Of a DNA stretch of 64,000 bases, positions 19,011-48,692 are shown piece after piece. The notes under the pieces are model-generated. The model was not told where the DNA came from. It worked only from the letters and a program-made list of their open reading frames with translations, and did not search any database. The DNA comes from Bryum argenteum (lineage: Eukaryota > Streptophyta > Bryopsida > Bryales > Bryaceae), in the NCBI GenBank assembly GCA_037043015.1, contig CM073321.1, positions 39,700,420 to 39,764,419 of the forward strand, read 5' to 3'. The position numbers and the translations under genes are program-made. Within the stretch, counting starts at the first letter, position 1, and each line of letters starts with the position of its first letter.

Positions 19011-20140
19011 GCGGCAAAATGTAAGAGCGACTATCACTAGAAACTTGATTCAAAAACTAATGTGCATCAAGAGGACAAGCTGAAGTTTTGAAAGAGTGAT
19101 GCAAATTCTAGCGGGAGAGAGGAGGTCTTTAGAAAAGGAGGGAGCCGTTTTTATTGGCTAGGACATTGAGAGATAAATTAAAAAAGCATATTTACAAAAC
19201 ATGGCGGTCGCGGTCAAATGCACTTCGGTTCAGTTCATGATTGTCATGCACGAGTACGTCTAGTACCATGACTCCTATGTCAACTCCTCAAATTCATTGC
19301 AGCTAGGTAGTAGTTTCCTCTCCAAGGGGAATTCCGAGGAGGAGGAAGACTTTCAAATGGGCCGCGAGAAATGCTCTAACGTCCATTCTATGAAGTAATC
19401 CATATAGCTAAGTATGTCAAGAAACAAATCTGACGATCGAACTTTCTCTAAATAATCTCGTTGTGTGCCGAAAAATGTTTGATCAGCCTCTACTTTACTA
19501 CAATAAGATTACATGAAGATAAAACGTTGGGAACTTAAAAATGAGTTTTTGAAAATACCATATATGCTTCAAAATTCCACCTAAAATTATGTTTAAATGG
19601 TTACTTAATAACAAATATTTACGTACAGAAATATATAAGAGTATTGTCATGAATCATGGCATAATGTTTTCAATTGGTTATACAGCATGACTAATACGAG
19701 TTACTAGACAATACTGCATGATTAATACAAGTTACTAGCTAAATACTGCATGATTAATACGAGTAATTACGTAAATACTGCATAATTAAAATCAGTTACT
19801 AGGTGAATATAGAATCTACAAGTTGCAAATACAAATTTGCTCACAAAGCCCATATTCGTTATATTGGGAAATATGCAGGACTTTGGGAGATTTAAGAGTA
19901 GTGAATCATCTAAAATATCGTACAATGTTAAACATAAAGTACTAGATCATGCATCAAACATGATATGAATATTGCACATAGAGACATCGCTGTGAACAAA
20001 CCATAGAAAAAGGATGGGAATAAAAGAATATTCTGTTTATTTGCTTGTGAATATCAATCATGATTCACAAAATATGTCATACAAGAGTGATGACTATCAA
20101 ATCTGTACATAATTACTTCTGTAGCTAATAGATGTAACTA
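19011..20140. other. AT-rich spacer with a short tandem array
   Basis: No gene is seen. At about 19680-19810, four diverged units of roughly 40 bp repeat the words ATACTGCATGATTAATAC and GAGTTACTAG. The rest is low-complexity AT-rich DNA. Confidence 0.5.
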
Positions 20141-20395
20141 CTACGGATTTCCACCATAAGCGACAATACGAGATTGAATGAATGCTCGTTGACGTTGACG
20201 TGTCCAGCTAGAATCATTGTCTTGCATCAACGGACTATCAAGAAGGCGTTGCAGTCTTTTGCGACGCCGGTCCTCAATGCTTGACTTAGGTAGCGAGTGG
20301 CGGCGGTTTTCTAACGAAGGCTTGATTGCTCCCTGTTCCGTGGACTTCGAAGGACATGCTTTTTGTCGGACCCCGTTTTTTCGATTTTTGGCCAT
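20141..20395 (-). CDS. Small basic protein, unknown
   Basis: An 84-codon frame with ATG at 20395, intact to its stop. It is rich in Lys, Arg, Ser and Gln (MAKNRKNGVRQKACPSKS; EDRRRKRLQRLLDSPL). The charge suggests nucleic-acid binding or disorder. It stands alone between AT-rich DNA and the GGACGG region, with no neighbour that explains it. A chance frame or a fragment of a larger spliced gene is equally possible. Confidence 0.3.
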   Translation of the reverse strand: MAKNRKNGVRQKACPSKSTEQGAIKPSLENRRHSLPKSSIEDRRRKRLQRLLDSPLMQDNDSSWTRQRQRAFIQSRIVAYGGNP

Positions 20396-20514
20396 TATGT
20401 TCTAATGCGCATTAAGAATAAGTATAGTGTCTGGAATCCAACCTATGCATTTGCTAAGCCGTATAGTATAAGGCAATTACGTTTTTACAAATAAAGGAAT
20501 TAGTTAAACTCTAG

Positions 20515-23500
20515 TTTGTGTAAAGTAGGACGGATTTGCCAATCCGTACTCTGTCCCCGTACGGCTAGGACGTGCTGTAAGAGGACGGATTAGGAGTTAT
20601 GATGGTAGGTGAAGGACGGAGTGGCGAAGAATTTAATAATGGCGAGAAATCTAGAAGGCGACTCCGTACGGGGAGGACAATGATGGCGGCGGACCATGTC
20701 ATAATGGTCGGACTTAACTCCGGCCCCCTCGATATAAGGCAACCCGTCCGCCCTTGTCGTCACCTGCCTCCTCGTTTTCTGCGCCCCTTGTCGTCTTGCG
20801 CTCCTGCCCTCCGTCTTCCTGCTTTCCGTCCTTAGCTGCGATCCGGCCCACTGGCCGATCTCAGCCCGGCGACTCTCTATTTCCTTGCGCACTTCTTTCC
20901 GATGGCAGGAACGGCGTCCACTTCCTCTCAGGAGCAAGAGGAGCTGAAGATTTCCATCAAGCTCGTGTCGCCGTGTATTCCGATCGAGGAGAATGAGAAG
21001 AAGTCCTTGACGGAAGACCTCGAGAGGATGGGGTTAGCCGCCTCTTTGGATACGCCCAGGGTTTTTGCGCGACGCGGAGATGGTGCGCGAGATCAAGGTC
21101 GGCGCGCCAAACCGATTCGAGGGGACGGTTAGAGGGAAGCCGGCTTCGGACGGCCGAGCCTTTGGGAGAGCTGTTTAAGGCCTCGACCGTAAACAACGGA
21201 GTAGGGTTGTGCGGCCGGAAACACAAGTGGGCGAAGAAGGCGTTCCACGGGATCCGCACAAGAACAATGGCTACTCGATCGAGGATTGCAGGAATCGAGG
21301 AGCGCGCCGTCATCAAGTTCTTGGCGCCGATTATTCACGGAGAGAAGCCGCACCGGATCACCGTGACGGCCTGGCCAACACCGTCCTGGGCTCCTTGCGC
21401 GCGAACGGGAGACGGATCGGGGATGATCATCCGCGACTTGGTCGCCCGCTTGCGGAGAACGTAGGTAAAACCCGTCCTAGCCCTATTACTTTCCTTTTCT
21501 TTACCACCGCATGTACAAGAAGGAGGAGGTGTCTTGACGGAGGAGGAGGAGTCGAACTATGAGATCGCTACTGTCGCCGCAAAACAACGGCGTGTTCGAG
21601 TCGGAGGAGAGTACGGATAGCAAGGCCGTGTACTCGGAAGAGGAGGAGGACGAGGTCGGATCAAACGAAGGGGACGTTCCACCCGACGCACCAGAGGAGC
21701 CGGCTCCGGACGCAACCCCACCGCGGACGCGTCCAGAGGTAATCATCCTTCCGTCCCCGTCCCCTCCCACGAACCCGACCGAGGTCGGACTCAGACTGAG
21801 GGAGGACAGCCTTCGAGGCCGGTGGATGAAGGGGAAGTTACGGCCGATTGGGAGAACCCCATGAATCCGAACGACCCCCGACTCCCCACCTAACTAATCC
21901 GTCCGCCAATCACCCGGATCCCATGAGGCGAGCATGGCACCACTTCACGGAAGCCAGGTGCCAGTACTTCTTCTACCAAGGACTGCTGGCGAAGCTATGC
22001 CAAGAATTTGGAGTAAAGACGTTGCTGGAGGTCAAGGCGAAGTGGGAATCCAAGCCGGACGCGGAGCAGTTTCGACAAATGGAGAAGCAAGTGACCAAGC
22101 TGATTCTGGAGAATAGACGTCTTCGCGAGACGGTCGGAGAAGGGAGGAGGAACTCCCGGTCGGAAGGCGAGGCCGTAATCACGGCAAACGAGCGGTCGTA
22201 AAGCTCGTGGAAATCTGCGAGGTTCCGGCCGAGGTGTCTTGCAGAGGGCGAACCTGTTCGAGGCCGGAATCACGGAGTCGGAGGTTTTCAAGGCGGAGAC
22301 ATTCAAGAAATTCCTCTTGGCAAACAAGACGTACGCCACGAAAGTAGAGAAGAGCAACGCCGAGGTCAAGGTGCCGCTCGACGCCGCCGGGGGAGCGAGA
22401 TGAAGGAGGTAGTGATGCCGGCCTTCACTTCTACTCCGGCCAAGACTCCGCGGCCGGATACAACGAGGACGGATCTTCGGGCCCTCGGTCCGACCGACAC
22501 GAAGGGCAAGAAGGCGAAGGTGAAGACGGAGTCGGATGCACCCGCCTTGCCAGACTCGCCCGGCCAAGAACACGCGCACCGCGAAGAGGAAGCTCACGGC
22601 CGAGGAATACGAGAAGTCCCCCGGGGCGCAGAAGCTTCACGACATCGGCCTCGAGCATTCTGAAGAGGAAGAGTTGAAGAGCGGGGACGAGACTAACTCC
22701 AGCGAGGACGAGTACGTGATCACCGACACGGGCAAGAGAGTGAAGGCAGGACGTATCGCGACGACGCCATCAAGCGGCGAAACACGGAGTTAGTTCGCGA
22801 AGGAAGAGGTAGGACGTCTTAGAGGACGGCTGTCATAGGACGGCCAGGGTTAGGAGGCCGGATTGGTATCCGTCCTAGGTCAGTATAGTGTTTTCTTTTT
22901 GGGGAATGCGTGCCGCTTTTTGAGGAGTAGGCCTGATAGGCCGGCGCCGCAATCCGATTAGGGATCTAAGTCGTTGACTTAGAAGTACTTATAGGTGGGA
23001 GTTTTGTCCACCAAAACATTCCTTGCTTGAGTGTTAATCGAACCTTCTTATGCGCATATTCGGTGTGATCATTTCCTTGTCTCCTTTTCAGTTGAGTGCT
23101 TGGAAAGCCGGATCTACTTTGTGTGTTGTGAGTTGGGAGTGAGGAATCCGGATTCTTTGTTAGATCGTTTCTGTGGAGTTGAAGCCGGGTTGGGCGTATT
23201 CTTGAGTGCCTTGTGTCTTGAACTGGTCTAGGTGTCTGAGAGAGGGAAACTGCTGTGGTAAACACTTACGGTCTGGGAGGTTCTAGGAGTATAGTGTGTG
23301 AGGACGGATTCCAATCCGGCCTCCAGCTGACACAGACTTGGGTTCCTCTGTAGTCTCAGAGGACGGATTAAGAGCAGTACGTGACCAGAATACGTGTAGA
23401 CGTCTTCTAGCCGGATTCAGAGCTCTTGGAGTCTGTCATTGTAGTAAGGGTGATAGGGTAACCAGGACGGCCTGCGTGACCTGCTAGTTCGGACGGATAG
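20515..23500. repeat. GGACGGATT / AATCCGTCC palindrome family
   Basis: ACGGATTTGCCAATCCGT (20530-20547), CGTACGG pairs near 20557 and 20666, GGATTGGTATCC (22860-22871), GGACGGATTCCAATCCGG (23302-23319), and many single GGACGG words up to 23.5 kb form a fourth motif family confined to this stretch. They flank rather than fill the coding-like remnant inside. No terminal repeats were identified. Confidence 0.65.
20902..22793 (+). pseudogene. Charged gag-like or hypothetical polyprotein remnant
   Basis: GC-rich coding-like sequence starts MAGTASTSSQEQEELKISI and continues in shifting frames: GRKHKWAKKAFHGIRTRT, an acidic block (YSEEEEDEVGSNEGD), a helical segment with WHHFTEARCQYFFYQGLLA and KQVTKLILENRRLRETV (coiled-coil-like), then VFKAETFKKFLLANKTYA, and a Lys/Glu-rich end (KRKLTAEEYEKSPGAQKLH, then ITDTGKRVKAGRIATT). 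Several indels separate the pieces. The helical core with charged ends would suit a retroelement Gag, but there is no zinc knuckle, protease or reverse transcriptase, so this is only a suggestion. It is much richer in GC than the flanks. Confidence 0.35.
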
Positions 23501-24009
23501 GACGGATTAGTTGTGAGGACGTAATGTGTGCCTTAGTGTGTGTGTGTGGTTGAGTAGAGTCTAAGTGTGGAAGTTTCCGCCACGATAAACATAAGGGAAA
23601 GAGTCTTTGTGCATCCCCTCTTGCAAAGGGATACCCTTGCCCAGCAAGGCTAAAACATAAGTTGGGACTAGAAACGTTTGTGGGTTTGGTTGTTTTAGCA
23701 CTACTTGTCTTGGTCACTTCACAGAATCCCTGGAACGATACACGAGTCACCTGAACACGGGGTTTACACCAATAAACGTGTAAGGGAAGATAAAGTGAAT
23801 ACATGGCATCCGACACTTTTGGACTCTCCAAAACATGATCCTGAACAAAATAAAACAACAACATTTCTTATAAGTGAACGAGCTAACAGTTTTATACAAG
23901 CAATAGGTAGCATATGAGTCAAATGACTAAGAATTGTCTAACGTACTAGAGTGTATAGCAGTAGATCCACAAATAGTTAGTCGTTTTTGCAAACACTCAA
24001 CTGAAAGCA
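23500..24009. other. Spacer, no supported gene
   Basis: Transition from the GGACGG region to set A. There is a short GT run near 23536-23550 and no convincing reading frame. Confidence 0.4.
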
Positions 24010-24321
24010 TTAAATGCACACTGTAGTACAAACCTTCACGAAAGCTTCTTCAGAAATATCCAAGTCAATGTCGTATAACATACGCTTCGTAGGCGTAAAT
24101 GTATTTTGAAGAGGAGAACCATTTTGATTAATTGTTGGAGGTGACACAGGGGAGGCGGGTTGCAACACCTTTGGAGGTGATGACTTAGTGACAGGGCTGT
24201 TAACTACTCCATCTTCTACCGCCATTGTCGAGAAATCCATAGTAGATTGCGCCGTTTCAGCAGACTGCAATATTTGTCCTCTACTCCGAAGTGAAGGCCC
24301 GAAATCCGCAGCATTCATCAA
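24010..24321 (-). CDS. C-terminal exon of set A, Ser/Pro-rich
   Basis: About 100 codons, Ser/Thr/Pro-rich in the middle (KSSPPKVLQPASPVSPPT), ending in DIDLDISEEAFVKV before a stop. It lies downstream of the HAD-like domain on the same strand and is probably the last exon of the A gene or transcription unit. No domain is recognised. Set C has a comparable low-complexity tail at 5.2-5.6 kb. Confidence 0.35.
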   Translation of the reverse strand: MMNAADFGPSLRSRGQILQSAETAQSTMDFSTMAVEDGVVNSPVTKSSPPKVLQPASPVSPPTINQNGSPLQNTFTPTKRMLYDIDLDISEEAFVKVCTTVCI

Positions 24322-24659
24322 AGAATCCAGAGAAGCACGACAATCACCTTGCGTAATCTATTTTAACAATATTTCAAACGAATCATCAATTATCCAGAGT
24401 ACATAAAGTTCATGCAAGAGATGCTTGTCTTAAGAAAAAACTAAAGATCACATTGTCTTCATATTCACAAAATGAAGATTCACAAACATATGAAAAGTCC
24501 TACAAATCTACTACAAGAGCTTCACAATCTAAAAATTTTAAGATCTGTATATAGAAAAATTATTTCGTTAAGGCCTTTTGTATTTCAATATACAGATCTA
24601 ATGATGCACGATCATCATATAACTTGGCACGTCCAAATTCAAACGATGCCCGAAACTTG

Positions 24660-25345
24660 CTAAAGGGTCCGTCAAACTCATGGAGCTCTAACAAATACGG
24701 CAAAACCTGATCTAACAAAATAGAATCCTCGTGTGCCCTATTGTCCTTGTGAGACCAAGATGGTAGTAAAAGAACATTTTCCAGCTAATGAAGCACGTGC
24801 TTCACTGGACTATCATTTGTGATTAGCGTATTAGCCTCTGTATAAAAACCATCAAAGCTATTGAAGAGATGAGGTGACAAGGTCTTAAGGAAGATAGAGT
24901 TCTGAGTTCCCGGTTCCTTCATGAACAAAGGTCGGCTCCCACCAGATTTCAAGGGAATCATGTCACAGTCCTCTGCACTAAGAATTTTTAGTGGCCTTAT
25001 AGGGTTTATAGGGCCAAAGAGAAAATCACAAATGACTTCTGTGGTTTCTGTCATCATCGAACTCCAAACCGTGATGGTAGCGAACAATGCCACCCGAGAG
25101 AGGAAGTCCTTACTGTTGGGCCTCACCCATACAAGCTTCTTCCCCACCTCGGTTGGCAACGTGGCCGAGTGAATACGGAAGTCACGGTTTCTGTATCCTT
25201 TAGCTTCCCAAAATGGGGTACAATTGCAGAGGATACCATTGAGGTCGAGACCAACATTTAACCAAGTACCGAAGGATTTCCTTGGAACCCAACCTATGCC
25301 TTCTCTAGAAATTAGATCATTGACCGATGCGTCGTTGACCTAAAA
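24660..25345 (-). pseudogene. NIF/FCP1-like HAD domain (set A)
   Basis: All HAD landmarks are visible. Motif I is GLDLNGILC (about 25223-25250), keeping the Asp nucleophile but with Asn at the second acidic position, as in a plant FCP1-like subgroup. RPNSKDFLSR and TITVWSSMM (motif II region) follow, then FMKEPG, and NTLITNDSPVKHVL (motif III, about 24790-24830), then LENVLLLPSWSHKDNRAHED and LPYLLELHEF. One TAG at 24785-24787 interrupts after HVLH without a frameshift. This is the only one of four HAD copies in the window with the motif I Asp seen. It follows the ParB-MTase gene on the same strand and may be its C-terminal domain. Confidence 0.65.
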
Positions 25346-25369
25346 TGAAAACGACGCACCACGACAAAA

Positions 25370-25693
25370 TTATTGGGGCGTTTTTGTCACTGGTGCAATG
25401 AATTCAAGGTCAGAATCCGTAATACATCGCAACGATGGCACGGGTGAGAGCACAGTGTGTGGAACTGAATATACCTGATTATCATAATTGCTCTCCTCTA
25501 AGTCAACTTGGACACCGATTGACCCGAGTGACTGCTGAGTGCAATCTATCTCATCACGGACAGCAACAACATTCTCTGTATGTGAGACATCATGCAATTT
25601 AAGTGTGTCCTCCACCGATGGAACCCGCCCATGGCTATAATATTCAAGCGTGACATCATCCATGACTGGAACATCGATTGCTTCGTCATCCAT
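25370..25693 (-). CDS. Acidic linker exon (set A)
   Basis: An acidic stretch of about 107 codons (MDDEAIDVPVMDDVTLEYY ... LEFIAPVTKTPQ) between the Glu/Arg-rich linker and the HAD domain. No catalytic motif is seen. An acceptor-like site precedes it. It is probably a disordered internal exon of set A. An alpha palindrome lies just upstream at about 25799-25827. Confidence 0.4.
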   Translation of the reverse strand: MDDEAIDVPVMDDVTLEYYSHGRVPSVEDTLKLHDVSHTENVVAVRDEIDCTQQSLGSIGVQVDLEESNYDNQVYSVPHTVLSPVPSLRCITDSDLEFIAPVTKTPQ

Positions 25694-25929
25694 ATAAACA
25701 TCTGGCAGTGCAATACAAATTCATGGAATCAGGAAACAACTAGATGGAGGAAATAGAATACGGGAGCCAACAAGAAGCAGATAGGAAAAAGGGCAACAGT
25801 TTAGCTCAAGTCGAGCTAAACTTTAAAATAGTAAAGGCCTGAATTATTTACAAAAAAATGTCCGAGTTTGATACAAAATTTCACATGTATATGTGTTTTT
25901 CGGCATTTACAGCTGAAATACTATACACT

Positions 25930-26777
25930 CGATCCAAAATCTAAGATGAAGGAGGACCTGTAGATTCTTCTTCCGCGTCTCCCTCAGGGTGTAATTCAGA
26001 CGTAGGAGAGGAAGGCGTAGGCGCGAAAGGCTCGGTAGTTGGAGGCGGCGAGGACGTGAGTGGTTGCAAAGTAAAAGGACCTGCATGTGTAGCACCTGCA
26101 TCACCACTCTGAGCAGTAGTGATTGCCATCGTCTATACCGAAGTTAATGCCTTCCCGGCAGTAAAACTCCGCATTATCTCCATCATCTGGGCATGGCGTT
26201 CCTGGTCCCTCTTATCGCGTTGCTGCTGCGCAATTTGTTGCTGCGCAAGGAGCTCTTTTAACTTCCTCCGGTGTGTCGTCTCCTCCTTAAACTTCCGCTG
26301 TAGTGCAGCCAATTCCGCACTCTCTTCAGCCTTGAACCTACTTGAGGGTGAGTCGTTCGACAGGGGATTACGTTTCCGCTTTGCACTCCCCCTGCCGCCT
26401 CCTCACCCAGGAGCGGTACGCGACTCCTACGGTGTCCGAGGGGTCGTGTCCAACTCCATGTCTTGCTCTTCGTCATCTTGTCTTGAACCAAGGCTGTAAG
26501 TGCTGCCTTCACCTTGAAGTTGCCTTCCGCTTGACCTAGAATCCTCCCGGCCGGAGTCGTCCGCCTCAACGTCTAGGGCCTCGTCATCCAAGGCTGCAAC
26601 AGCTTTGCGCTTGCCCTTAAAGAGCATGGCCCCGACCTCCGGAAACTTGACTTTGCCGACAAAATAGCCGTTTACGGAGAAGTCAGTGGGATCAAGAGTA
26701 AGGCCTTTGTTGTACGCTTGGTCAATGTCCTCTCTATCTTCCGCGTCAAATATGGCGTAGGCATCGAGAGACAACAT
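25930..26777 (-). CDS. Linker exons after the MTase-like region (set A)
   Basis: The exon begins at 26777 after a CTTGTAG acceptor: MLSLDAYAIFDAEDREDID, then LDPTDFSVNGYFVGKVKFPE, which aligns with set C at 9408. It continues with a Lys/Asp/Ser-rich stretch, then in other frames a Gln/Glu/Arg-rich coiled-coil-like part and a Pro/Thr-rich end near 25.95 kb. The intron start matches in sets A, C and D. The frame changes mean the full model is uncertain. It probably tethers the MTase-like and HAD-like parts. Confidence 0.45.
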
Positions 26778-27164
26778 CTACAAGAAAAACAGTGCAGCTT
26801 AGACAACGGAATTGATCTGTAGCTAAAGCGGACGTGGTTTGAGAACAAGCTTGACAGTTTAGCTCGACTCGAGCTAAACTGGAAGGGAACTGTAAGGTCC
26901 ATATGGGTATGACAGTTTAGCTCGACTCAAGCTAAATTGTATGACAGTTTAGCTCGAGTCGAGCTAAACTATAGGGAGCCCACGAGCGCAAATGGAGTAC
27001 GACAGTTTAGCTCAAGTCGAGCTGAACTGTAGGTAAGCTAACCAACCCAAGCGAGCTAAACTGTAAGAGAACTATAAGGACCATGTGCATGACAGTTTAG
27101 CTCGACTCGAGCTAAAGTGTAGGGAATCCTATGCGAGCAAATAAAGTACGACAGTTTAGCTTAC
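26778..27164. repeat. Intron of set A filled with alpha palindromes
   Basis: At least five alpha copies lie at about 26854, 26912, 26944, 27001 and 27092, plus a half copy at 27151. The donor itself (GTAAGC, 27159-27164) runs into TAAACTGT, one arm of the motif. The same intron position in set C (9409-9572) holds a decayed alpha-prime motif, and in set D (56232-56380) a beta motif. Confidence 0.85.
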
Positions 27165-28515
27165 CACGCTTCCGCAGACTGCTTTTCCGCCGGCGTAGAC
27201 AAGACTAATGTTCTCCTGCTGCTGGCAAAAAAACCGGATGACCTGCAAATAAAAATCCATTTTCAACTCGATCGGCTACATGTGATACCGAGACTCGTTG
27301 TATTTCCGCGGCTTGTCGTAAAGCGCGTACTTTGGAGCGCAATACTCGGTCTGTAACATACCCGCGAGTTTCACGTTTTCCCTGATCATGAATAGAAGAC
27401 GCACGGGCACCGAGGCTTGCTTCGCTTTTGCATTGTATCCAGCGATCCGTTCGTGCGAGGATGGATAGTACATTGATGGAATCAGCTTATAATTCGAGCC
27501 TGGGAAGTATGCAGGATTTGTCGCGAACGCCTCAACTTGTGCATAATCACTATCATCCCCGCAAATAAATAACCAACAGGGTACATCTGTGAGAGCTGGC
27601 TTGTTCTGGGACGATAAGATCGCCATGAAAATTTTAAGAATGGGTGGTCAGGCGAGGAATCAGTGGAGGTATTACTACTACCGGGAACCAATCTGAAGTC
27701 GATGATTCCGACGTTCATCTCAGGTGCAGGTTCCGGCCATTGTTTTCAGGCCAATCTCTTAGCCTCTGTGGTGTTTTGCGCTCAAAGGAACGTAATATAA
27801 GACTACCAACAGGGCCAATATACTTCTCGCGCTTTTCCAGAAACACCTCGAAGAACCTCTTTGGGTAGGGAGAGAGATCCTCGCAGCTGGTAATCTTGTG
27901 CTGGGTTTGCCTCTGATCTGCGTAGTACTTATCAGGAATACCCTATTCCAAAAGTGCGCGCTTCGAGGCCTTTGTGACGTAGTAGTCTCTCTTGAACTTC
28001 TTCCACGCATCCACGTCGAACTCATTGTTCTTGAAGATTCCGAGTTGGGGTCTGATCTTGTGGATTTGAAGCTGGGCGGTCGCCTTCCGCTTCAACCGTT
28101 CAACGTACTCCTTCACGGAGTAGCAATCTTCAAGAAGGGTTGCTGGTTGTTTGAGGGTAACCTTCGGGTACTCCAGTTCCCGCAACGGACCTGACTTATT
28201 GAGCATATGTGTACAGAGTTTCCTATGGTCCGACTCTGAAAGGTTACCAAGGTTCTTAAAAAATTCCCTCGACAGGGTTTGGTCGTTATTTGGTTTGAAC
28301 CCCGGCTTGTCACACAGCTACCTCAAGGAGTAGGGGTCGATAAGGGTCCCCTGCGCGACACTTCCAATCAACTCTGCCCATAGGTTCCAGAGATCATCAG
28401 GGAAGGTGATGATCTTTAGCTCATTCGTTAGGGACAAGACCTTGTTCTTCACCTCTACTTGGGCCTTGGCAACACTAATCATGGCTAACCTATGTCGAAT
28501 AGAGTCAACGAATTT
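27165..28515 (-). pseudogene. Methyltransferase-like region of ParB-MTase gene (set A)
   Basis: The exon starts at 28515 (KFVDSIRHRLAMI) at an intron position shared with B and D. Conserved blocks are IITFPDDLWNLW, GTLIDPYSL, NVGIIDFRLVPGSS, VPCWLFICGDDSD, YCAPKYALYDKPRK and, after a short intron (27243-27288), VIRFFCQQQENISLVYAGG. Block order and predicted strands resemble beta-class DNA methyltransferases, but the DPPY motif is replaced by DFRLVP, so catalysis is doubtful. In-frame TAG codons lie at 28318 and 27943, and two small frameshifts at about 27.72 and 27.63 kb. A different Rossmann-like fold is the main alternative. Confidence 0.5.
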
Positions 28516-28856
28516 CTGCAATGCCACAAGTAATGTAAGATTTTAGAGTATAAGAGAGCGGTCACTTTAGCTCGAGTCGAGCTAAAGTGTGCATCCAAAA
28601 TTAAGAAGCAGTTGTTTTCAAGTGTCGGGGTTCATTAAGCAGCAGCGACAGTTTAGCTTTAGTCGAGCTAAAGTGACTTCAGTTTAGCTTGAGTCGAGCT
28701 AAACTGCGAGCACCAGGGATAGAAGCAATCAAGAATTTAAAGTTGAGCTTGTTGAAACTGCAGTCACAGTTTAGCTCGAGTCGAGCTAAAGTGCGACGGG
28801 AAATTATTTGCAATTAAAGAAGATAGAGATGCGGTGCGACATGAGGTAATACTTAC
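28516..28856. repeat. Conserved-position intron with four alpha palindromes (set A)
   Basis: The donor is GTAAGT at 28851-28856 and the acceptor is GCAG at 28516. Copies lie at 28563-28589 (arms CACTTTAGCTCGA and mirror), about 28648-28676, 28680-28706 and 28768-28794. The B and D genes have an intron at the same codon and phase, also filled with palindromes. Confidence 0.9.
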
Positions 28857-30288
28857 GTCAAAATTTTCAAATAGTAACACAACTCGCTTTGCTTGAACTC
28901 GTTTGTCCGCCACCCCACCTGCTGCATGTCTGTTTGCGGGGCGCTCGTAGTTCTCCCACACGGTGCGGGCGGCAAGGATATTCGATGCCCATGTCGGCTT
29001 AAACGGAGTGAAATGGTTCACTCTGTTATAGAACGCCGATATTTTGCGGAGCTTGGCTTCATCCTTCGTCTAAACTACAAAAGCAGACCACACCCGGAAG
29101 TCCTTACGAATTGTTTCTGGGACTTTGGACTCAAGCATTTGCTTTGATGCGGAAACACAATGTTGGCCGTTGATTATCCAAAACTTGCAGTTCTGCATAT
29201 CTTCAAGGCCGTTCGGCTTCACATCCAATTTTGGCATCACGCAGAGCGTTTGCTTCTGCGACCTATCGGGCATATTGATGAGAAAATTCATCAAGTCCGT
29301 CTTGCCCCTCTTCTCGAATGCCCGAATCGTCCGTTGGGGAGGGGACTCGATCATCTTCATTGTGTCGATCTCCATCTTCATGCAAGGTTTAGGAAAGACG
29401 AAACAGTCGTGACAGTCTGTGAAGAACTTCTGATAGATGAGGTTGACGTTCTCGAAGTCACCTTCCTCCACGGTATTAACGTTCTTTGGAATGCATTGAA
29501 TAGCAGCGTTCAAAGCCGTTAAAGCATCCTTTTCGGGGATGAGCATGCTCTTTTTCTTCTTCGCCTCGGCCGACTTCTTCAAGGGAGCTTCTCTCCTCTT
29601 TACAGGCGAGTCAGAAGTCGTGGTGGTTGTAGGGGCAGGCCTTGTAGCACGTTGCGGGCGTGATGGGGTCCTGCTCTGTACGCCGCTCCCCGTTGCAGTC
29701 AGCCCAGATCCTTCCAGTGGAGCTTTTCCTTTGAGGTGTATAGTCTTTGCCATAATGTCAGTGTGTGTTAGAGCCGAGACTACAGATCGAAGTTTGATCG
29801 CGAGCTGCTTGGCCTTGAGATCTCCCCCCTGTTTGGTTTGCCATGCTTTAGTAAGCATATCATGTTTCAATGTTGTTTTGATTTCATCGAAACTGGACGC
29901 ATCTAAACTCTCCACTAACTGCCCCAAGTCGAAACGAGTCTGCTTGATATCGATCAGTATGGTGTAGTTGTAAGTTTGCTCCTTGTCCTTCTCCTTGAAG
30001 GTTGTTAATGTAGCTATGACTTCCTTATCTGTTTCGTGGTCGAAGTCAGTGAGCTTGGAGTCAATGTCAACGCACATGGGGTCTTCTACATCTCCTTTGT
30101 ATGTCACAACAAGGGTGAGGAATGCTGTGTATGGGATCCATCTCGCAGACCACGAAAGCACTTTTGCTGGGTCCTTGAATTCCCAGCAGTCCAACTGCTT
30201 TGTATCGTCGCCATCGTCTTCGTCAGCGTCCAGCGGCCTAAGTTTGAAGAAGTGCTGGAGCTCCTCTTGAACTCGTGCCTTCTCTTGA
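28857..30288 (-). pseudogene. ParB/Srx-like N-terminal half (set A)
   Basis: The exon begins after a CACAG acceptor. The first about 170 residues are mixed alpha/beta (DCWEFKDPAKVLSW; TYNYTILIDIKQTRFDLG), followed by a Pro/Thr/Lys-rich basic linker (KKSAEAKKKKSM). The C-terminal third holds ESPPQRTIRAFEKRGK, QTLCVMPKLDV and CKFWIINGQHCVSASKQML (about 29130-29187). That last block fits the G-x-H core of ParB/sulfiredoxin-fold domains, with VWSAFVV after it and FKPTWASNILAARTVWENY near the end. One TAG (29070-29072) falls where B has Trp. ParB-MTase fusions are well known in phages and bacteria. In eukaryotes this pairing is unusual. Confidence 0.6.
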
Positions 30289-30365
30289 CTGTGAATGTAA
30301 AGGTTGTGTTAGTTGATAGTAACGCTTTGGATGTACATGAAGCGTAATTTATACATCCTAGTACT

Positions 30366-31120
30366 ACTTGTGGTTTAGCTCGAGTCGAGCTAAACAACAG
30401 ACTAGCGGCTAATGAGCAAGCTAAATGGAAATTACAGTTTAGTTCGACTCGCTAAAGACTTGGGTCAACAACAGTTTAGCTCGAGTCGAGCTAAACTGTA
30501 AAGACTTGTGTCTACTACAGTTTAGCTCGACTCGAGCTAAACTGTAGTTGGCACATATTGTTGTCTCTACAATTTAGCTCGACTCGAGCTAAATTGTAGT
30601 TGACACCTACAGTACCCTCTAAGATTTGACGTTGTTTCAGTATAGCCTTAACCCTAAACCTTGAACCGCGTCGTAATTAGAAATTCGTTGATAGCTTGGG
30701 CAGCAATTTAGACAAAAATGAATGTCACAACTATCGTCACCTCTACAGTTTAGCTCGAGTCGAGCTAAACTGTAGACGCATGTGCCAACTACAGTTTAGC
30801 TCGACTCGAGTTACAGTGCTTAGACATCCGCCAGCTACAGTTTAGCTCGACTCGAGCTAAACTGCAAAGACATGTGTCATCTACAGTTTAGCTCAACTCG
30901 AGCTAAACTGCAGCCGCTTCTATCATGGCTTTATTTTATTTTAAGGGCAGTAATTACTTGGCTCTAGCTGAACTACGTAGAGGCATCCTTCAACTACAAT
31001 TTAGCTCGAGTCCAGCTAAATTGTAGAGACATGTATCAACTACAGTTTAGCTCGACTCGAGCTAAAGTGTAGTTGGCAGCTTACTCTACAGTTTAGCTCG
31101 ACTTGAGCTAAACTGTGGGG
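30366..31120. repeat. Alpha palindrome array upstream of set A
   Basis: About twelve copies lie 5' of the first visible A exon. Perfect 29-bp examples are at 30471-30499 (arms ACAGTTTAGCTCGA and mirror) and 30569-30597 (arms ACAATTTAGCTCGA and mirror, both arms changed). Others lie near 30370, 30435, 30518, 30746, 30792, 30838, 30882, 30997, 31040 and 31088. Many are followed by a GACATGTGTC- or TTGGCAC-type spacer, so they also form a loose tandem array. Confidence 0.95.
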
Positions 31121-32020
31121 AGGACCCATCTATTTATTGGCGGAATTGTCATTTCTATGCTGATGATGATCATCACCTATCTGCCATTTTCCGGCTTTTA
31201 GTCGGCAATCGACTTGAGTGATGCGCTTGACCTGGGCTCGACCTGCACAAGAATGTGATTGGTCATGAACTGGGAATGATATGTGGAAATGCTTGTTTGC
31301 ATTTGTGAGGAAGTACGTTTGCTTGTTTGCATTTGTGGTGTTTGCATTTATAGATCTTGGATTCATGGGTAGTTGGATCGTGAGTTTAATGAAAGTGTAT
31401 CTCAATGTCGAAACCTGGTTTCTCCATTTACAAGACGACTCAATCCAACACAACATGCTGCATTTACTGTCATCTTTCTTTTGAGAGCTAAAAATTAAAA
31501 TCAAACATGTACGAGATTCAAGTCATAGCATGAGGAATGCAAGTTACACAAAAGAACATGACAAAGAATGCGGAACAATGCAAGCAAGAAACAACTCAAA
31601 TACAAATTACATACAGCTGAACAACTCTTGCTTATAGAGGCTACTGTCTCACCTTACTCGAAATTCTGCTTTAGATTACGCTCTTCCCCACGTCCATCCA
31701 GCAGTTGAATCTCCAAACCGTTCAAGTCCTGCCTAAGATTCATCACTTGAACTCATTTAGACGCTTGTTTCCTCATACTTGTACTCGAATTGCAGCATTG
31801 AAGATAATTTCACTAAACCCTAATCTCAAGTGCACATTTCTTCACTCCCGAGGTAACTCTAAAACTAACAATTGAAAACAAAGCATGATAGCCTCTGGCA
31901 CCAGTTCCATGAAGTTCCATCGACATTACAAGAGGAAAAAAGGGGGATTACATATTGCAACAATACTCACAAAAACGAAGCTTATGCGGTGACCTTATTG
32001 GCATTGACTGTGTTGCAAAT
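31121..32020. other. Spacer between A and F, no gene
   Basis: Includes a small direct repeat (TTGTTTGCATTTGTG, 31286-31300 and 31324-31338) but no convincing coding sequence. Confidence 0.5.
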
Positions 32021-32530
32021 GGTGGCGAACTCACAGCCCTTCAAAGCAGCACCTCCATTGAAGAATTGGAGTGAAATAGTACTCGCAACTTGCACTCCGC
32101 CGGGACCTCCGCCGCTTGCGCACTTACAAATAAGTCGACAAAGAAGCTCCGCACAGCACCTCCGCCGCACACCACCTCCGAACTGCAACATTGGGTCACA
32201 GCACAGCACCTCCGCCGCGCCGCACAGTTACACCGCCGCACAGCACTTTTGACCGCAGAAGCACTAAATCCCCAAAACGACCCCGTTTCGGCACTTGCAG
32301 CGAAAAGCAACAACACACCGCCGCACTCCTTTTTTACTGGACTCCGTCCGGAAAACCGCCGCAGAAGCACTCCGCCAAAGCTAAAACCGCCGCACTTCGT
32401 CGGGACCTCCGCGGCTCTCCAGGGAGACAGCACCTCCGCCGCAGAAGCACTCCGCGGAAGCAAACTACAATACAGCTCCAGGGAGACAGCACCTCCTTCA
32501 AAATCAAACTACACTACAGCCCCTAAACGC
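32020..32530. repeat. CCGCCGCA / GGGACCTCCGCCG-rich repeat block
   Basis: Words such as AGCACCTCCGCCGC, GGGACCTCCGC and CCGCCGCAC recur from about 32100 to 32500, and a CAGGGAGACAGCACCTCC block occurs twice (about 32418-32436 and 32477-32495). The long frames here come from this biased composition and I do not call them genes. Confidence 0.6.
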
Positions 32531-32796
32531 AATGGCGGGAAAACTTAATAACTTAGAACCAGCGGAAAGCGACAAAAATGAAAAGCGCGAGCGCAAAACG
32601 ACAACCAAGAGGAGAGCGCAAAATGACAATAGAGCGGAAGACCAGCGCGAAGAAGATAATGGGACAGAGGGGAGGTGATGAAAGGTGAGAGAAAAGCCTC
32701 GTGAGTGGAATGGCCAGTGAGTGGGGGGGGATGGCCACCCTGCGATGAAATGGCGGCGGTGGTGGGACATCGAGATCCCATCATGAGGCGCTTTTT

Positions 32797-32896
32797 CATG
32801 CCCATAATCATGTGCATGGGCATGGTCATGTACATGGTCATGCGCACATACATGGCCATGTACATGACCATGCCCATGCACATGATCATGGGCATG
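32797..32896. repeat. CATG-rich inverted repeat (41-bp arms)
   Basis: The left arm 32797-32837 and right arm 32856-32896 are reverse complements except for one base, around an 18-base loop. Both are built almost entirely of CATG words (CATGTGCATGGGCATGG). It could fold into a long hairpin. Confidence 0.9.
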
Positions 32897-32899
32897 GCA

Positions 32900-35800
32900 A
32901 AAAAATTTATTTTAGTGTTTATTTGTCGAAATTTTGTTACATTTAATGTAATTTATTTTAATTCTTGGCTAAGTTTTGACTAAGATTTGACTATGTTTAT
33001 TTCCAAGTTTTGTTCCAATTTTTACTAAGTAAATGTCAAGGATTTTAATGGAAGTTTTTTAATAAAATTTTGACTAAATTTAGTACTCTAAAGTACTTTA
33101 AATTCTTAGTTTTAAACACGATATCTAGAGAGTACATTGTTACCTCTCTTTTGTAAAAAAAAATTCTATGATGTTTAGTTTTTGTGAGTTCCACTGATGA
33201 GTTCCACTTTGAGCACTCCTGAAATTTCATTGTCTTCGATCATGGCATTTCCTCTGATCTGTACTTCATGTTTGTATATTTCTAAGAGATGTATTGTCGC
33301 TTGCACAAGCGATCACCCTGCTACGGTTCACGCTCATCCGGCAAGTCATCACCAAAACGAATCTAATGAGACTGCGTATTAATTTTCTCTCATGAGAGTT
33401 TTGTTTGTTTCATCTCCATTTGCAGCTTCTAATTTCAACTCAAAAATCGAAGACTTGCTCGTGAAGAAGCTCAATTCTCGTTTTGACACATTCAGCAACT
33501 CGTTTATTTGATGTTAGAGATAAATCTGTTGTGTTAATTATTTTCAGGGATTTTGGATTGTAACGCCGGAGTCGCACATGTTGAAGGTTCTGCCTCAAGA
33601 TTATACGTTGTTTTCAGCACTGGCTGATGAACTGGTAACAAATAGTACTAACAACATTATTGAAGAATTATATGCAGCAATGTTGCCGGCCTATTACTGA
33701 TGGTTAGAGATCTGGTAACAGCATAGCTCTTTGCAAGCTGTGTATCAACTGCAACCTGGACTACAGCGTCTCATATGGTACATCTTCTGAGCCATTGAAA
33801 TTGACTGATTGTAACTGCTTGCAAAATCAATGGTGTATCATTCTCTGTAATATCACCAGATATCACTCGTTTCAGTTTTCAGGAAAAATCTCACATCATC
33901 CGCGTGTGACCTGAACCTTAAACCTCAGTCTTCTATATGTCAAAAAAAATTAAAATAGAAATAAAATAAAAAAACAAAAAAAATCTACGTTTTAAGTAAA
34001 TAAGTTATTTTGGTATTAGTCGTTAATAAACAATATCTATAATGAATATTTTATTGGATAATATAAATATTAATGAAGAGATTATTTAATACACATTTAC
34101 TTTAAGAATCATTGGATATTTTATAGACTTTTCATAAAGATGTTGATGTAAATAAATAAATAAATATACATATAATAAATTGATCACCACAAGATAAAGT
34201 ATCTTATAAATAGAGTATTTTAAAAGATAACTATAAATAAAAAAATTATTGGATACACATAGAAATAAGGGATTATTGATTAGAATATTTACTAAATATA
34301 TTAATATAACTATATCTATATATATATATAAAAATTAGTGAATTGTTACACTTATAAATACATGATCTTATGAATATAGTATTTGAAAATAGTAGGTCAA
34401 TGAACAGATCATTTGGAAATTCATCTAATAGTTTTATTGACGTTAAAAGACTAATAAATAGGGGATCCAATAAGTATAGTATTTTATAGATATGTTATTT
34501 AGGTATAAGACATTAATAAATACTCTATTTCATATTAGATTATTTGAGAGAAGGTTAGGAATAGATTATTAATACAAATGTAATACACTTGTTATTTGGG
34601 AATAAGCTGATATTGAATAGAGTTATTGTTGAATATATTAGTTTATATATAGATTATTAAAAGATAAGATTTTTTTTTATACTTCTATAATTAAGTAGAA
34701 CAGTGAAAGTTCCCACAACTGCAAATTTGAAAGTTTTTTATGTCTAATATAGGTTAATAGGATTAAGAGCTGTGAAACTTTAAAAACATGCTACTGCATA
34801 GAGGGTTTCAATGAAATTCTTAAATTATAAGCTATAAATATTGCCTATTGTGTAGAATTTTACAACCTACATAAATTTAAAAAGACATATCTTAGATAGT
34901 ATAATGACTATGGTTACATTCTAAAAATATGAAAGCATGTATTAGTTTACATTGTTGCTCACATTGTTGTATACATTGTACAACAATCATTTCTGTACAT
35001 TTATTCTTATTTCATGTTCATTTGAAACCATTTTTGTTCTTTAGTATGCGATTAAATATATTTATAAGGTAGTAGAAAAAATAATCAAGGAACAGTCACA
35101 TGTAAAACATAAATACGCTGATGAAGTTCATGACTCTTCACATTGTTCAAAAGTAATAATTGTTATAATACTCATATTTGTGAATCTCGATAATATAAAT
35201 GACGTAAAATATGTGCTGAAAGGAAAAATTTGTAAATGGCCCAACAAATATTGTTGTTGTTTGTTTTCTAACAGTCACGGTGCTCATATTTTTAAATAAA
35301 CGCAAAATTAATGTACATTAAATGTACATAACCAATACCAACACCAGACTTTACTTTGCTAGCAATGTTTACAATCATCTGTACAAATGTACATGACGGT
35401 GTATACAGACAACATCTACAAAAAAACATTTCATTTCAAACACAAAGTCTGTTCATTCGATAAAAAAAACATTCAGCTCTTCTGCATACTTTACAATCAT
35501 TTGTTTTGATTGACATTGTACAAAATGCTTTGTACCAACATTTAATACAAACCACTAGATACCGATTGCGTTTGGAGGATCAAAGCTTATAATAGTTCTT
35601 ACACTATACACTATGCTTAAAGACATTGAAATGCATTTGGAGACGATAGTTAATAGGTAATTTAAAAGTTACTAAAATTTGCAAAATAGAATTTCAAAAT
35701 TAAAGATCAATGAATGTATTGATTGTATTTGATAAATGCATATATGAAACGAAAAAATGTCTATATTTGCAATTGATTTTGAACATTTCATTAAGAAATC

Positions 35801-36570
35801 CAATTGTAAGGTTTAACATCTACAAATAAAATTAAAACGTTCAAAAGAAATCTTATTTTGGTAAGCTTTATGTTAAAAAAAATTAAATTACATATATACC
35901 ATTGAGCATGTATACATTGACATTAAGTTTAAATATAAAATTTAATGTACATCAAAATTTCTTTTATTGAATATTCAAATTAGATTTTAACAGGGTTTAC
36001 AAATTTACTTATCAAATTGTATAAATTTTTCATTGTAGATTACTTTGAAGATTTGTTTCTCAGATTATATTAACATTGTATGAATTTACAATTTGAAAGA
36101 TATATTTTTTATATATAGATAAATAAATAGTATATAATATAATATGTAATAAATATTATAAATTATATTAAATTATATAGTTTTATCATATACATTACGT
36201 ATATACGAATAAGCAAACACAATTTAATAAAAATTATGTTTACTCATCAATTTTTAACGAGAAATAGCAAATGATAGAACTAATTTGAAGTTTATAATAA
36301 TTATTATTCAATTATGAATAGTTAGCAAGTGCATACACACAAAAAAGTTAGTATTATTAAACTTATAGATAAAATAATAGCTTAATACTTAATAAGACTT
36401 CACTTTAAGGTAAATATTGCATCAAATTTATTGTATAGAAACTTTATTTAGAAATAAAGTTGAGGTTAAGGATACTGGATTCACAAAAATATGAAATTAG
36501 AAGTAGTATCCATTGTATCACTCCCAAGTAATTTAACTAAAATTTTATTTTGTCAGTGAGTGTTTGCTAA
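32900..36570. other. Very AT-rich spacer, no gene
   Basis: About 3.7 kb of AT-rich DNA with TA runs (for example 34313-34331) and no protein-like frame. It separates the two divergent alpha-type gene sets. It may be nested, decayed transposons or a non-coding centre of the element. Confidence 0.5.
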
Positions 36571-36764
36571 ATGCATCATTTAACTAAATATGGACTTTGG
36601 GCTTATTTATAGACTTTAAAACATGCGGAAATCCCTCTATCCATGACCATAAAATCTACATATTTGAAGAGTATCTTCATGAAACCTAGATTTTGGAAAA
36701 CATTTTGCAACTATTATTCTTAATTGTAGACCGTAGGCTCTCCATATTTAGTTAAATATGTCAT
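36571..36764. mobile_element. MITE with ATTTAACTAAATATGGA terminal inverted repeats
   Basis: A 194-bp unit with ends ATGCATCATTTAACTAAAT (left) and the reverse complement of ATGACATATTTAACTAAAT (right). The first about 55 bp also resemble the sequence following 50572, where gene B is cut. It is non-coding. No clear target duplication was seen. Confidence 0.75.
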
Positions 36765-36855
36765 CATAACATAGTAAACGTCACATTAGGTGTATAAAGA
36801 TTAACATTTTTTTGACCAATAACAATTATCACACACCTGTAATCAGAAATCCTAA

Positions 36856-36882
36856 ATCCTAAACCCTAAACCCTAAACCCTA
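36856..36882 (+). repeat. Short interstitial plant-type telomere repeat
   Basis: Three CCCTAAA-type units preceded by two imperfect CCTAAAT/CCTAAAC units. It is too short to be a telomere. It may be a telo-box (AAACCCTAA) of a promoter, since it lies some 1.2 kb upstream of the F coding exon. Confidence 0.6.
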
Positions 36883-37539
36883 TAATTCCGCCAATTTTCA
36901 AATGTCGGCCCTTTTGTTCACGCCCATTATTAACTGTTGACACTTCAGTTCACGCCCATTTTCATCTGTCGAGACTTCAGTTCCCGACAATTTTCAATTA
37001 TCCAAACGTCAATTCCCTCCCTTTTCCTATTTCTGGGATAGCGCGAAAACGGCATTGCGCTACGCAATGACCTTTGAAATCCAGGACAAAAATGATTCTT
37101 TTCTTCTCAATCTCTGAGTGTGCTGAACTCCGTCGACGTATTTGAGTTCTCCGCGCTTCCTTCAGCTCAACCTCTACCTTCGCGTACGTGTTTCTCGATT
37201 GCATTCTGCATGATTGTTTGTCGTTCAATTTGCTTTGCAAAGCTTCTTGCATTGTTTGTTTCATTTCTCTTCTTAGTTTTCTCCTTATCTTGAGTAGTAG
37301 TAGTTGATAATTTCTCTTCAGTGGTTGTATTCTAATCGCTTGTACTTAACCTTTGTGCATTCGGAGTCGTTGTTGTTGCCATATTCTTTTGATTTGACGA
37401 TTACGTTGGTACAGGAGTATATTTTGATTTCTGCGTGTGACGATAGAATGGAAGAGCGATGGTTGTAATGGAATTTTGCATTCTGATTGAATCCCGTAAA
37501 AACCGCCGGAATTCCCGGGAGTAGTCTTGTATCTTGTCA

Positions 37540-38056
37540 TGCAGTTTAGCTCGAGTCGAGCTAAACTACATGCCATGCATGTTCTTGCAGTTTAGCTCCA
37601 GTCGAGCTAAACTGTATGCCATGCATGTGTCTGCAGTTTAGCTCAAGTCGAGCTAAACTACAGAAGTATGCGTCCATACAATTTAGCTCGACTCGAGCTA
37701 AACTGCAGAAGTATGCGTCCATACAGTTTAGCTCGACTCGAGCTAAACTGCAGAAGTATGCGTCCATACAGTTTAGCTCGACTCGAGCTAAACTATATGC
37801 CATACATGTTCTTGCTGTTTAGCTCGAGTCGATATATACAATGTATGTTTCTACAGTATACAATATACAATGTATGTTTCTACAGTTTAGCACGAGTCGA
37901 GCTAAACTGTATGGCATGAATTACTCTGCAGTTTAGCTTAAGTCGAGCTAAACTATATGGAATGTATGTTTCTGCAGTTTAGCTCGAGTCGAGCTAAACT
38001 GTAGAATGTATTCTCATAGTCAGTTTAGCTCGACTCGAGCTAAACTGCATGTATTC
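37540..38056. repeat. Alpha palindrome array 5' of gene F
   Basis: About ten full or near-full copies lie at roughly 37542, 37587, 37632, 37678, 37724, 37769, 37882, 37929, 37973 and 38020, plus a half copy near 37815. Three units (37632-37790) are nearly identical 46-bp tandem repeats with AGAAGTATGCGTCCATAC between motifs. The array ends 75 bases before an acceptor-like ATTACAG at 38124-38130, so it probably lies in a 5' intron of F. Confidence 0.95.
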
Positions 38057-38130
38057 ATTTCTCATATTGTCCTAATGTTGTGCCCATGTTTTTGTTCAAA
38101 TAGGTTTTAACCTTGTGGTGATATATTACA

Positions 38131-39017
38131 GGATGGATTTGTCTACAGACAATGATACTTTTGGCGATACACCTATGCATCTTGGTTTACTTGCTGCTCA
38201 AGTTGTTCCTCCACGGCTCTGGACAGGGAGGACTGTTGCAATGCTTGATTCCGGAGGACTCAGAATCGCTAAGGGTTTACTTCGAAATCTACGATCTGGC
38301 GCTGTACCTAATTGTAATGGCCTACTCAGTGATTCCAAAGTTGTGGTGCAAGTTTCAACTTTGTTTGTTGCGGTCGAGGATCCAGACGACTGGATATACT
38401 CCTTCAAGTCTTGGCCCATCCAACAAGTTCTCCTATACGGTGTTAGTCTTTTTCACCATAGTCAGCAAGATGTTTACAACAGATGGGTTCGGGAACGTAG
38501 TCGGCGGCAGGGGTCAACTCGAACGCGATCGTATGATAATTCTTCAAGGAATGAGTCTACTCCAATTTCGCGCAAAGCACAGTTTCTGATGACAGCGGAG
38601 TCAATCAATGCGGTCGCATGTAATACCTGCTGTAGGCACAATTGTGTTCAAATATACCCAAGGGAGAAGATTAAGGTTTCCAAGTGTCGCATGTACGACA
38701 AGACAACTGTGCAGTTCAAGAATCACGTCAAACTCGATGTTCATAGGCAGTTCCATAAAAATGCTGAAAGGCGAAATGTAGTCACTCTAGAGGGTATTGA
38801 TGTTTGTCAAATTGCGTGGATGAAAATCATGGCTGTGAGCAACAATACGTTTTATCGTCATGCCCTGAATGCAGCTGATGGCACTTTCCTTCATAGTTGT
38901 ATTCTAGCTAGTAGATATAGTTGTATTCTAGCTAGTAGATATAGTTGTATTCTAGCTAGTAAATTGTGCAACGAGGACTTTGTCTTTACTTCATCTATCC
39001 AATTTGGAAATAAATAG
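38131..39017 (+). pseudogene. DUF7869-like putative transposase, N-terminal part (gene F)
   Basis: ATG at 38133 (MDLSTDNDTFGDTPMHLG) follows an acceptor-like site. The frame is open to 39017. Matches to gene E are clear: LWTGRTVAMLDSGGLRIAKG with the E N-terminus, and VTLEGIDVCQIAWMKIMAVS with MTLMGSEVCATAWYKIHGIA. A Cys/His group, CNTCCRHNCVQIYP, lies between. The catalytic GHTHEDID region of E is absent. After about residue 255 the frame enters three copies of a 24-bp repeat and stops, so F is truncated. It points away from set A and carries the same palindrome type. Confidence 0.65.
38895..38966 (+). repeat. 24-bp direct repeat, three copies
   Basis: AGTTGTATTCTAGCTAGTAG plus ATAT/AAAT occurs three times in tandem at the 3' end of F. 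The unit is a multiple of three, so the frame stays open (SCILASRY repeats). Confidence 0.9.
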
Positions 39018-46399: not shown

Positions 46400-47080
46400 A
46401 TGTACTTATCCTAAAGTACTGTCTCAAAGACAGTATAAGAAACGTATATTCTGAATCGTATTTATTCGGCTATATTTTCTAAAATAATTAAGATATGTTT
46501 TATGATTAATTAAGGAGTTTATAATTTTGAAAAATTAATCAAAAATGTAATTTCTTAGTTAGTAATTGGAAACAGTTATCATTGGCTAAAATCACATATT
46601 ATATGTTAAAATCGTAATAAACTAGAAGTAAATAATGAGAAACCATAATATTTTTGTCGAATATTCTTACAATAAGAAAACTTTGTCGTGTTTGTGATTG
46701 AAGGCTAATTCGGAACAATCTATCAAATCAAATAGAGTTCAGTAAATTGAATGGCGTTTATAACTTAACAAACTTCGAATATGTTAAAAAATAAATAACA
46801 AAGTATCTTTTATAATTTTCTTATTGCTATTCCAAATTGAGGTTCGACCATAATCCGCTTGATTGTACTCTTTGAGGTTAAATAAGTCACAAAAAGTGCA
46901 GTAAAGTGGTCTAGAGAAGATTCTAAGAATTAGAAAATTAATAAGTCTGAACGTTATGTGAGTAATGAAAGTGCAAAAAAAAACATAGAAAAAATAGATA
47001 TTGTGAATTAGAGTGTTTAAATTTAACAAACTTTAGCAAAATAATAAAAAAAAACATTCAATAGCAAAAAAAAAAAATTT
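46400..47080. other. AT-rich spacer, no gene
   Basis: Low-complexity AT-rich DNA with A runs and no protein-like frame. Confidence 0.5.
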
Positions 47081-47084
47081 ACAA

Positions 47085-47320
47085 TCCAGGGGCAGCGGGC
47101 ACCCCCGGGCAGTCGGGGCACACCGGGCAGCGGCGCCCCATCACGTAAGGGTAGCGGGCACCCCGGGGCAGCCAGGGCACCCTGGGCAGCGGTGCCCCAT
47201 CACGCACGGGGAGCGGGCAGCCGGGGCAGTGGCCTAGCGCCGCCTAATGCCCGTGGGGCAGCCAGCGCAGCCACCACGCGGCCATGTGCCAGGGCAGCCG
47301 GCGAGGTCGCCAACATCCCC
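47085..47320. repeat. GGGGCAGC / GGGCACCCC tandem block
   Basis: Units of about 67 bp contain GGCAGCGG(C/T)GCCCCATCACG and AGCGGGCACCCC, with dyads such as CACCCCGGGGCAG. CCCATCACG also occurs in block 1 at 39.6 kb. GC-rich low-complexity DNA continues to 47.64 kb. The frames there look compositional. Confidence 0.6.
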
Positions 47321-48610: not shown

Positions 48611-48692
48611 AGATCTATTAGCTCGTCACGTTGGCAATTATAGTTATAGCTCGTTCCGTTGACACTTACAGTTGGTGCGTTGAATTGCAAAT

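Follow-up and report, generated by a model that had tools for sequence, protein, structure and literature searches.

Why should ParB-like, HAD-like and DUF7869-like genes recur beside one another, in divergent versions, within a single stretch of the Bryum argenteum genome? The stretch analysed here (the window) comprises 64,000 bases without a single N, at C1:39700420-39764419, and the searches beyond it covered a genome of 258.8 Mb in 25 contigs. We are fairly confident that the region consists of nested, mostly decayed copies of giant (~22 kb) terminal-inverted-repeat DNA transposons that carry a DUF7869 gene and a ParB-HAD gene, with the roles proposed below. Comparing the six-frame translation of the window with itself revealed gene sets on the minus strand at 24.0-30.3 kb (A), 5.4-10.8 kb (B), 52-61 kb (D) and 14.8-17.6 kb (E), and on the plus strand at 49.1-50.6 kb (C) and 38.1-39.0 kb (F). 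The ParB parts of A and C match at 26% identity (E=1.2e-11), the middle parts of A and B at E=3.0e-7, and the HAD part of A matches those of D (E=4e-5) and B (E=7e-5), so that the three divergent sets with a shared gene type, first noticed in the original prediction, hold up. The G-x-H cores INGQH, IGGEH and IDGLH are all present in the translations, and the genes have introns with GT..AG borders. A/F, B+C and D/E are three lineages of the same kind of large element, referred to below as alpha, C-type and beta.

The original prediction further held that ParB-type and DUF7869-type genes travelled together as one large element, a proposal that would fall if the two were neighbours no more often than chance. 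Genome-wide, their pairing lies far above the shuffled expectation. Five regions (R1-R5), chosen for a C-type ParB exon free of stops, all have a DUF7869 gene 8-11.5 kb upstream of that exon; it is divergent in four, the exception being R5, whose DUF7869 end is inverted. When 91 C-type ParB loci were set against 49 loci of the matching DUF7869 type, 23 pairs lay within 15 kb, 21 of them upstream-divergent, two downstream-opposite and none on the same strand; within 20 kb, the 21 upstream-divergent pairs observed compare with a mean of 0.69 and a maximum of 4 for shuffled positions. D-type HAD exons (21 loci) and E-type DUF7869 genes (116 loci) form 14 pairs within 50 kb, 13 of them upstream-divergent, and the single non-divergent pair is the rearranged window locus itself. 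The same arrangement is seen in 16 of 21 pairs within 50 kb in a group of 50-65% identity (shuffle mean 1.3), and in 17 of 21 pairs within 15 kb in a mixed, more distant group (shuffle mean 0.57). A-type ParB genes form two pairs within 30 kb with the C-type DUF7869 list; with the mixed-lineage list, nine pairs fall within 15 kb, and five of these are upstream-divergent. We conclude that ParB-type and DUF7869-type genes belong together in a single large mobile element.

These counts are lower bounds, given that 91 of 1035 first-look candidates were scored for the C type (query P0001, a relative of the C exon), 101 of 862 for the A type and 150 of 1810 for DUF7869. The C exon has 11 relatives in public data, and a search for longer relatives with spliced proteins returned only P0001 and P0008 among the 7993 candidates sharing most words, which were the ones scored. 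A further distant group was also seen (e.g. C9:16101456/16110687), with HAD exons in frames of ~261 aa at 27-31% identity to D and, roughly 9 kb away and upstream-divergent, DUF7869 genes at ~58% identity to E. C1 (44.1 of the 258.8 Mb) holds 73 of the 91 C-type ParB matches and 37 of the 150 listed DUF7869 matches, and may be a low-recombination or sex chromosome.

Alignment of R1-R5 gave a sharp left end in all five copies and both ends in three; in R2 and R4 no right end was found within the stretch fetched. The three delimited copies measure 21,926 bp (R1), 22,460 bp (R3) and 28,003 bp (R5, rearranged), and all three are flanked by 4-bp target duplications (flanks read by eye), respectively GGAT, TATT and ACAA. 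Their inverted ends begin AACACGTAATTC..., that is, 5'-AACACGTAATTCATTATAATGGGAATA ... TATTCCCATTATAATGAATTACGTGTT-3'. Inverted terminal repeats with a fixed 4-bp target duplication are those of a cut-and-paste transposon, and a duplication of this length is also known as a feature of Sola2. The DUF7869 gene lies near one end and reads outward, and a long intron-containing gene reads toward the other, encoding in order a ParB-fold domain, a middle region, a low-complexity linker and an NIF/FCP1-like HAD domain. R3 and R5 share stretches that are 98-99% identical, and an open relative at 98% identity exists for the DUF7869 frame of R3, which is itself open over 933 aa; this suggests that the C-type family has moved fairly recently. 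The alpha type has an end similar to that of the C type, AACCCCGTATTCGTTATATTTGGAACA or AACCCCATATTCG..., in all three genome copies inspected. Its right end was not found in the window, and 19846-19875 (plus strand) is a possible left end only, with 7 mismatches in 30 to the genome alpha end.

The beta lineage has a different end, ATTTAACTAAATATGGA. With at most one mismatch, it occurs at 365 + 359 genome sites against 3 + 1 for the pattern read backwards, and on C1 at least eight D-type HAD exons are followed, 2.4-4.6 kb further on, by an inward-facing copy of it (by eye, among the places listed). Full copies had been expected between ends of this kind for every set; the expectation holds for the D/E lineage and fails for A/F and the C-type sets. 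As a common end of all sets, ATTTAACTAAATATGGA was rejected, the C-type and alpha ends being different. It is often paired ~180 bp apart, forming miniature non-autonomous elements with beta-type ends such as that at 36571-36764.

One beta element explains the odd state of sets B and C. The C half (46424-50571, plus strand; ParB exon 49072-50295, directional repeat array from 47958 on) ends ...CACC|ATGCAATATTTAAC, and the B half (5207-10817, minus strand; middle exons, linker and HAD exon) starts on its own strand with CACC, at 10814-10817, after GTTAAATAATGCAT. CACC is the 4-bp target duplication of a beta insertion: one copy is joined to the HAD-side end of the beta element, ATGCAATATTTAACTAAATATGGAC, at 50568-50596, and the other to its DUF7869-side end at 10814-10842 (both given on the plus strand). 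A complete element aligns across the break, through window positions 48863-50571 (plus) and then 10820-9510 (minus), where uninterrupted copies read ELEIITASEE. B and C are one gene, as the original prediction had it, and that gene was split by a D/E-type element. Some 40 kb and a change of strand now separate the halves, C adjoining the HAD end of the beta element and B its DUF7869 end. On the simplest reading, the B+C gene would first have received the beta element; an inversion that broke within this element then probably parted the halves, although an assembly error is possible. Flanks of 4 bp are equal in three of six beta-type end pairs, namely the B+C site, L007/L008 and L049/L050.

Both genes of this beta element are recognisable on the minus strand. 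Gene E (14791-17582; 119 genome relatives scored) matches PF25273 (DUF7869) above the cut-off at E=7.2e-40 over 15362-16375, and the R3 protein does so at 6.6e-42. Gene F (38076-39014, plus strand) is a truncated, N-terminal part of a DUF7869-type, transposase-like gene that has no Pfam match of its own and is 34-37% identical to the DUF7869 proteins of R1-R5; the earlier assignment of E and F to this family is thereby upheld for both. QxDN and GHTHxDID are conserved among the DUF7869 proteins, and the family may be a transposase of the RNase-H-like kind, moving the element by cut and paste. In the literature searched the name DUF7869 was not found and its function is undescribed; the present finding suggests a role for the family, that of transposase. 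The beta ParB-HAD gene, D, extends over 53657-61348 (HAD 53657-54322, ParB core exon 58147-58446). It is interrupted at 58373-60545 by a fragment whose direct repeats are almost identical (96-99%) and inside which lies a reverse-transcriptase-like frame (YVDD, 58949-59428) that we take to be of copia type.

The long gene opens with the ParB-like domain. In set A, its first exon (28767-30308, minus strand; 101 genome relatives scored) is a decayed copy with two open frames parted by a stop, and in-frame stops of this copy are absent from some of the genome relatives. Structure comparison points to a ParB/sulfiredoxin-like fold, such as that of the bacterial ParB/KorB/Noc CTPase domain and of DndB/DGQHR-type domains. 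The core reads GQHHVEAA, GQHHVMAA or GQHSVAAS; the classical nucleotide box of ParB was not recognised by eye, and the DGQHH core of the element resembles the DGQHR motif. Unlike the bacterial ParB/KorB/Noc proteins, the domain has no significant profile match: the ParB-like open frames of the window match nothing in Pfam, and DndB, at a sub-threshold E=0.15, is the best ParB-type hit. The ParB-like identity first proposed is therefore supported at the fold level and not by sequence profiles. The original prediction had named the lack of any ParB or methyltransferase profile match as grounds for abandoning it, and at the sequence level such matches are indeed lacking; the ParB fold retains its structural support.

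The opposite end of the gene is better anchored in profiles. PF03031 (NIF) is matched above the cut-off by A (1.9e-5), D (3.2e-17) and a C-type genome copy (1.3e-7), which confirms the NIF/FCP1-like HAD domain; in set A the exon lies at 24788-25339 and, with its 3' tail, the segment covers 24013-25339 (minus strand). The catalytic DxDx(T/V) signature is altered to DLNG in A and L046, NLNG in the D copy of the window and ELNG in R3, and the D-type HAD exon of the window has no sequence match in the PDB at E<=0.01. With such an altered motif, the domain is probably a binding or pseudo-phosphatase module.

Between these domains lies the region once called a beta-class methyltransferase (middle exons at 27279-28317, minus strand, in set A, found by the window comparison). 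If it were such an enzyme, working or dead, the protein could bind and methylate its own transposon, as proposed for an algal Sola1 protein, and the arrangement is the same as in the published ParB-methyltransferase protein (PMC12477816). The spliced 484-aa region nevertheless matches no family in Pfam or NCBIfam and no PDB sequence, and its AlphaFold2 model failed (pLDDT 36). The motif [DNS]PP[YFWH] is absent from six of six sequences, although the same pattern detects five of seven reference methylases and misses the other two. In hhalign, the region against YhdJ and six phage methylases scored P=0.28, compared with 0.43 for the reversed sequence and 0.051 for the ParB region, a control that outperforms the region itself; the best alignment, not significant, does pair LRLEFYIRVLRMFTAPGNRFLSIMGGSKP with the part of YhdJ that holds motif I. 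None of these comparisons supports a methyltransferase, and the assignment is not upheld for this region; as an explanation of the protein we hold it to be possible, if doubtful.

Repeat arrays precede both genes. With up to two mismatches allowed, the alpha palindrome TTTAGCTCGANTCGAGCTAAA occurs 35 times in the window, against 0 expected: 21 at 25.8-31.1 kb in A, 10 at 37.5-38.0 kb before F, and 4 elsewhere. Dense runs of TTTAGCTCGA-N-TCGAGCTAAA lie directly upstream of the A gene (30374-31112) and of F (37545-38044), with others in A introns, so the palindrome type that A and F were said to share is indeed common to both. Isolated weak copies also occur inside the B half, at 6770 and 8308. 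The C-type unit, TTTAGGTAGCTGCCTGCTAAA, is related to the alpha palindrome and forms arrays in ~30-bp steps. In R1, R2 and R3 the units upstream of the DUF7869 gene, starting 3.7-3.9 kb into the element, are reversed (R1 has one far-off match as well), and those that start at 13.1-13.6 kb, upstream of the ParB gene and continuing past that point, are forward. In three of five copies, then, each gene is preceded by a directional array that mirrors the other. All 37 units of R5 are forward, as expected because its DUF7869 end is inverted. Perfect-arm palindromes were not clearly denser within elements than elsewhere (0.55 vs 0.21, 0.49 vs 0.40 and 0.57 vs 0.57 per kb). The placing of the arrays supports a shared control sequence for two divergent genes, without a strict lineage code.

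FCP1/SCP-type domains touch the RNA polymerase II machinery. The ParB-like protein may be pictured as an accessory DNA-binding protein that would recognise the element's own repeats and either control the two divergent promoters or mark the element, its HAD domain perhaps touching that machinery. A bolder version is that the elements carry their own ParB/parS-like self-recognition, in which the ParB-fold protein would bind the mirrored arrays before both promoters and the altered FCP1-type domain would link this binding with the RNA polymerase II of the host, by which means the element could sense its copy number and limit or time its transposase. Each element family would then have its own repeat code. 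We consider this version improbable on present evidence; that the C-type repeat is only an imperfect palindrome counts slightly against it.

Several findings weigh against the transposon reading or parts of it. No movement of the element has been observed, and it is from motifs only that the DUF7869 protein is taken to be a transposase. Flanks are unequal in three of the six beta-type end pairs (L047/L048, L051/L052 and the miniature element at 36571-36764). For 70 of the 91 C-type ParB loci no scored partner lies upstream and divergent within 15 kb, partly because only the top candidates were scored, which limits the claim without showing absence. A first neighbour test, using the 150 top DUF7869 matches of mixed lineage, gave a weak result, with 4 C-type pairs at distances up to 15 kb against a random mean of 2.4 and maximum of 9, and was replaced by the lineage-matched one. 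For the ParB-like domain, 13 A2 members gave no significant match in Pfam and no ParBc, Tea_C (0.058) being nominally better than DndB; Foldseek returned no match at E<=0.001, the structure model is weak overall (pLDDT 54, pTM 0.35), and no helix-turn-helix was shown in the protein, no search having been aimed at one. In the arrays, TTTAGGTAGCTGCCTGCTAAA is self-complementary at only 14 of 21 positions, and R4, a C-type copy, lacks it and carries 13 alpha palindromes, on which the idea that each lineage has its own palindrome type was rejected.

Could the ParB-like gene then be mere cargo, assembled from pieces of host or bacterial genes that a Sola-like transposon once captured and has carried since, with no part in transposition? 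Many copies contain in-frame stops, and the HAD family (Pfam NIF) also occurs in eukaryotic hosts, both of which would suit such an origin. Against it, the ParB and middle regions are kept in lineages 28% identical over ~850 aa, HAD exons are present in all three lineages and DUF7869 partners recur, a retention that suggests selection. Repeat arrays before both genes also speak against cargo, as do the ParB-type accessory genes reported from brown algal transposons, with similar ones known from green and red algae (PMC12477816). We regard cargo as unlikely. A virus-derived or plasmid-like unit using a ParB-type protein for partition or replication, as is typical of plasmids and phages, is very improbable given that no relative was confirmed in viral contigs scanned with the ParB alignment and with the E piece, that 20 window frames gave no significant virus-type Pfam match, and that the ends and target duplications are of the cut-and-paste type.

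ParB-type proteins are characteristic of bacteria and phages. The closest parallel to the giant transposons described here, by description only, is Sola1-1_Ec32 of Ectocarpus, a giant transposon of ~21.5 kb with a ParB-methyltransferase gene opposite the transposase, whose 1104-aa product has a predicted N4/N6 DNA methyltransferase as second domain (PMC12477816). The two agree in size, in a ParB-like domain and in coding the accessory gene on the other strand from the transposase; here, unlike there, the gene has an NIF-type HAD domain and mirrored repeat arrays and the methyltransferase is not supported. With Sola2, for which 4-bp target duplications are a feature, the moss elements share that duplication, short inverted ends and an accessory gene beside the putative transposase; the accessory gene in Sola2 is Fanzor1 (PMC3627910). 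Going by description, the elements seem to be a new version of the giant, Sola-like kind of transposon that carries a ParB accessory gene. The combination of ParB, HAD and transposase, once thought wholly new, is so in part: accessory genes of the ParB type have already been described in print for algae, and the passages of PMC12477816 that describe them mention no HAD domain. The word ParB is absent from a review of giant transposons (PMC6431247), and a ParB-HAD transposon gene was not met in the titles and abstract openings of the literature searched, outside which most subscription papers lie. What appears to be new is that the gene is fused to a HAD domain, that its partner is DUF7869, that the arrays mirror each other and that an inserted element could be traced within another. 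Here a ParB-type gene recurs as companion to a transposase-like one in a eukaryotic transposon that is 22 kb long and abundant, with related arrays before both genes, and this offers a testable case of element-encoded regulation.

Other features of the window stand apart from these genes. The stretch at 20000-23900, which has the possible alpha end on one side and the set A gene on the other, is GC-rich (51-54%) with many overlapping frames, and is possibly a nested retroelement. A repeat of ~1.5 kb at 61378-62959 is also present at L056:1900-3383, in an insertion within an alpha-type DUF7869 gene on C7, the two being 70-79% identical in their longer pieces. Finally, a long 12-bp tandem array occupies 63628-63934, with 18 copies in register.

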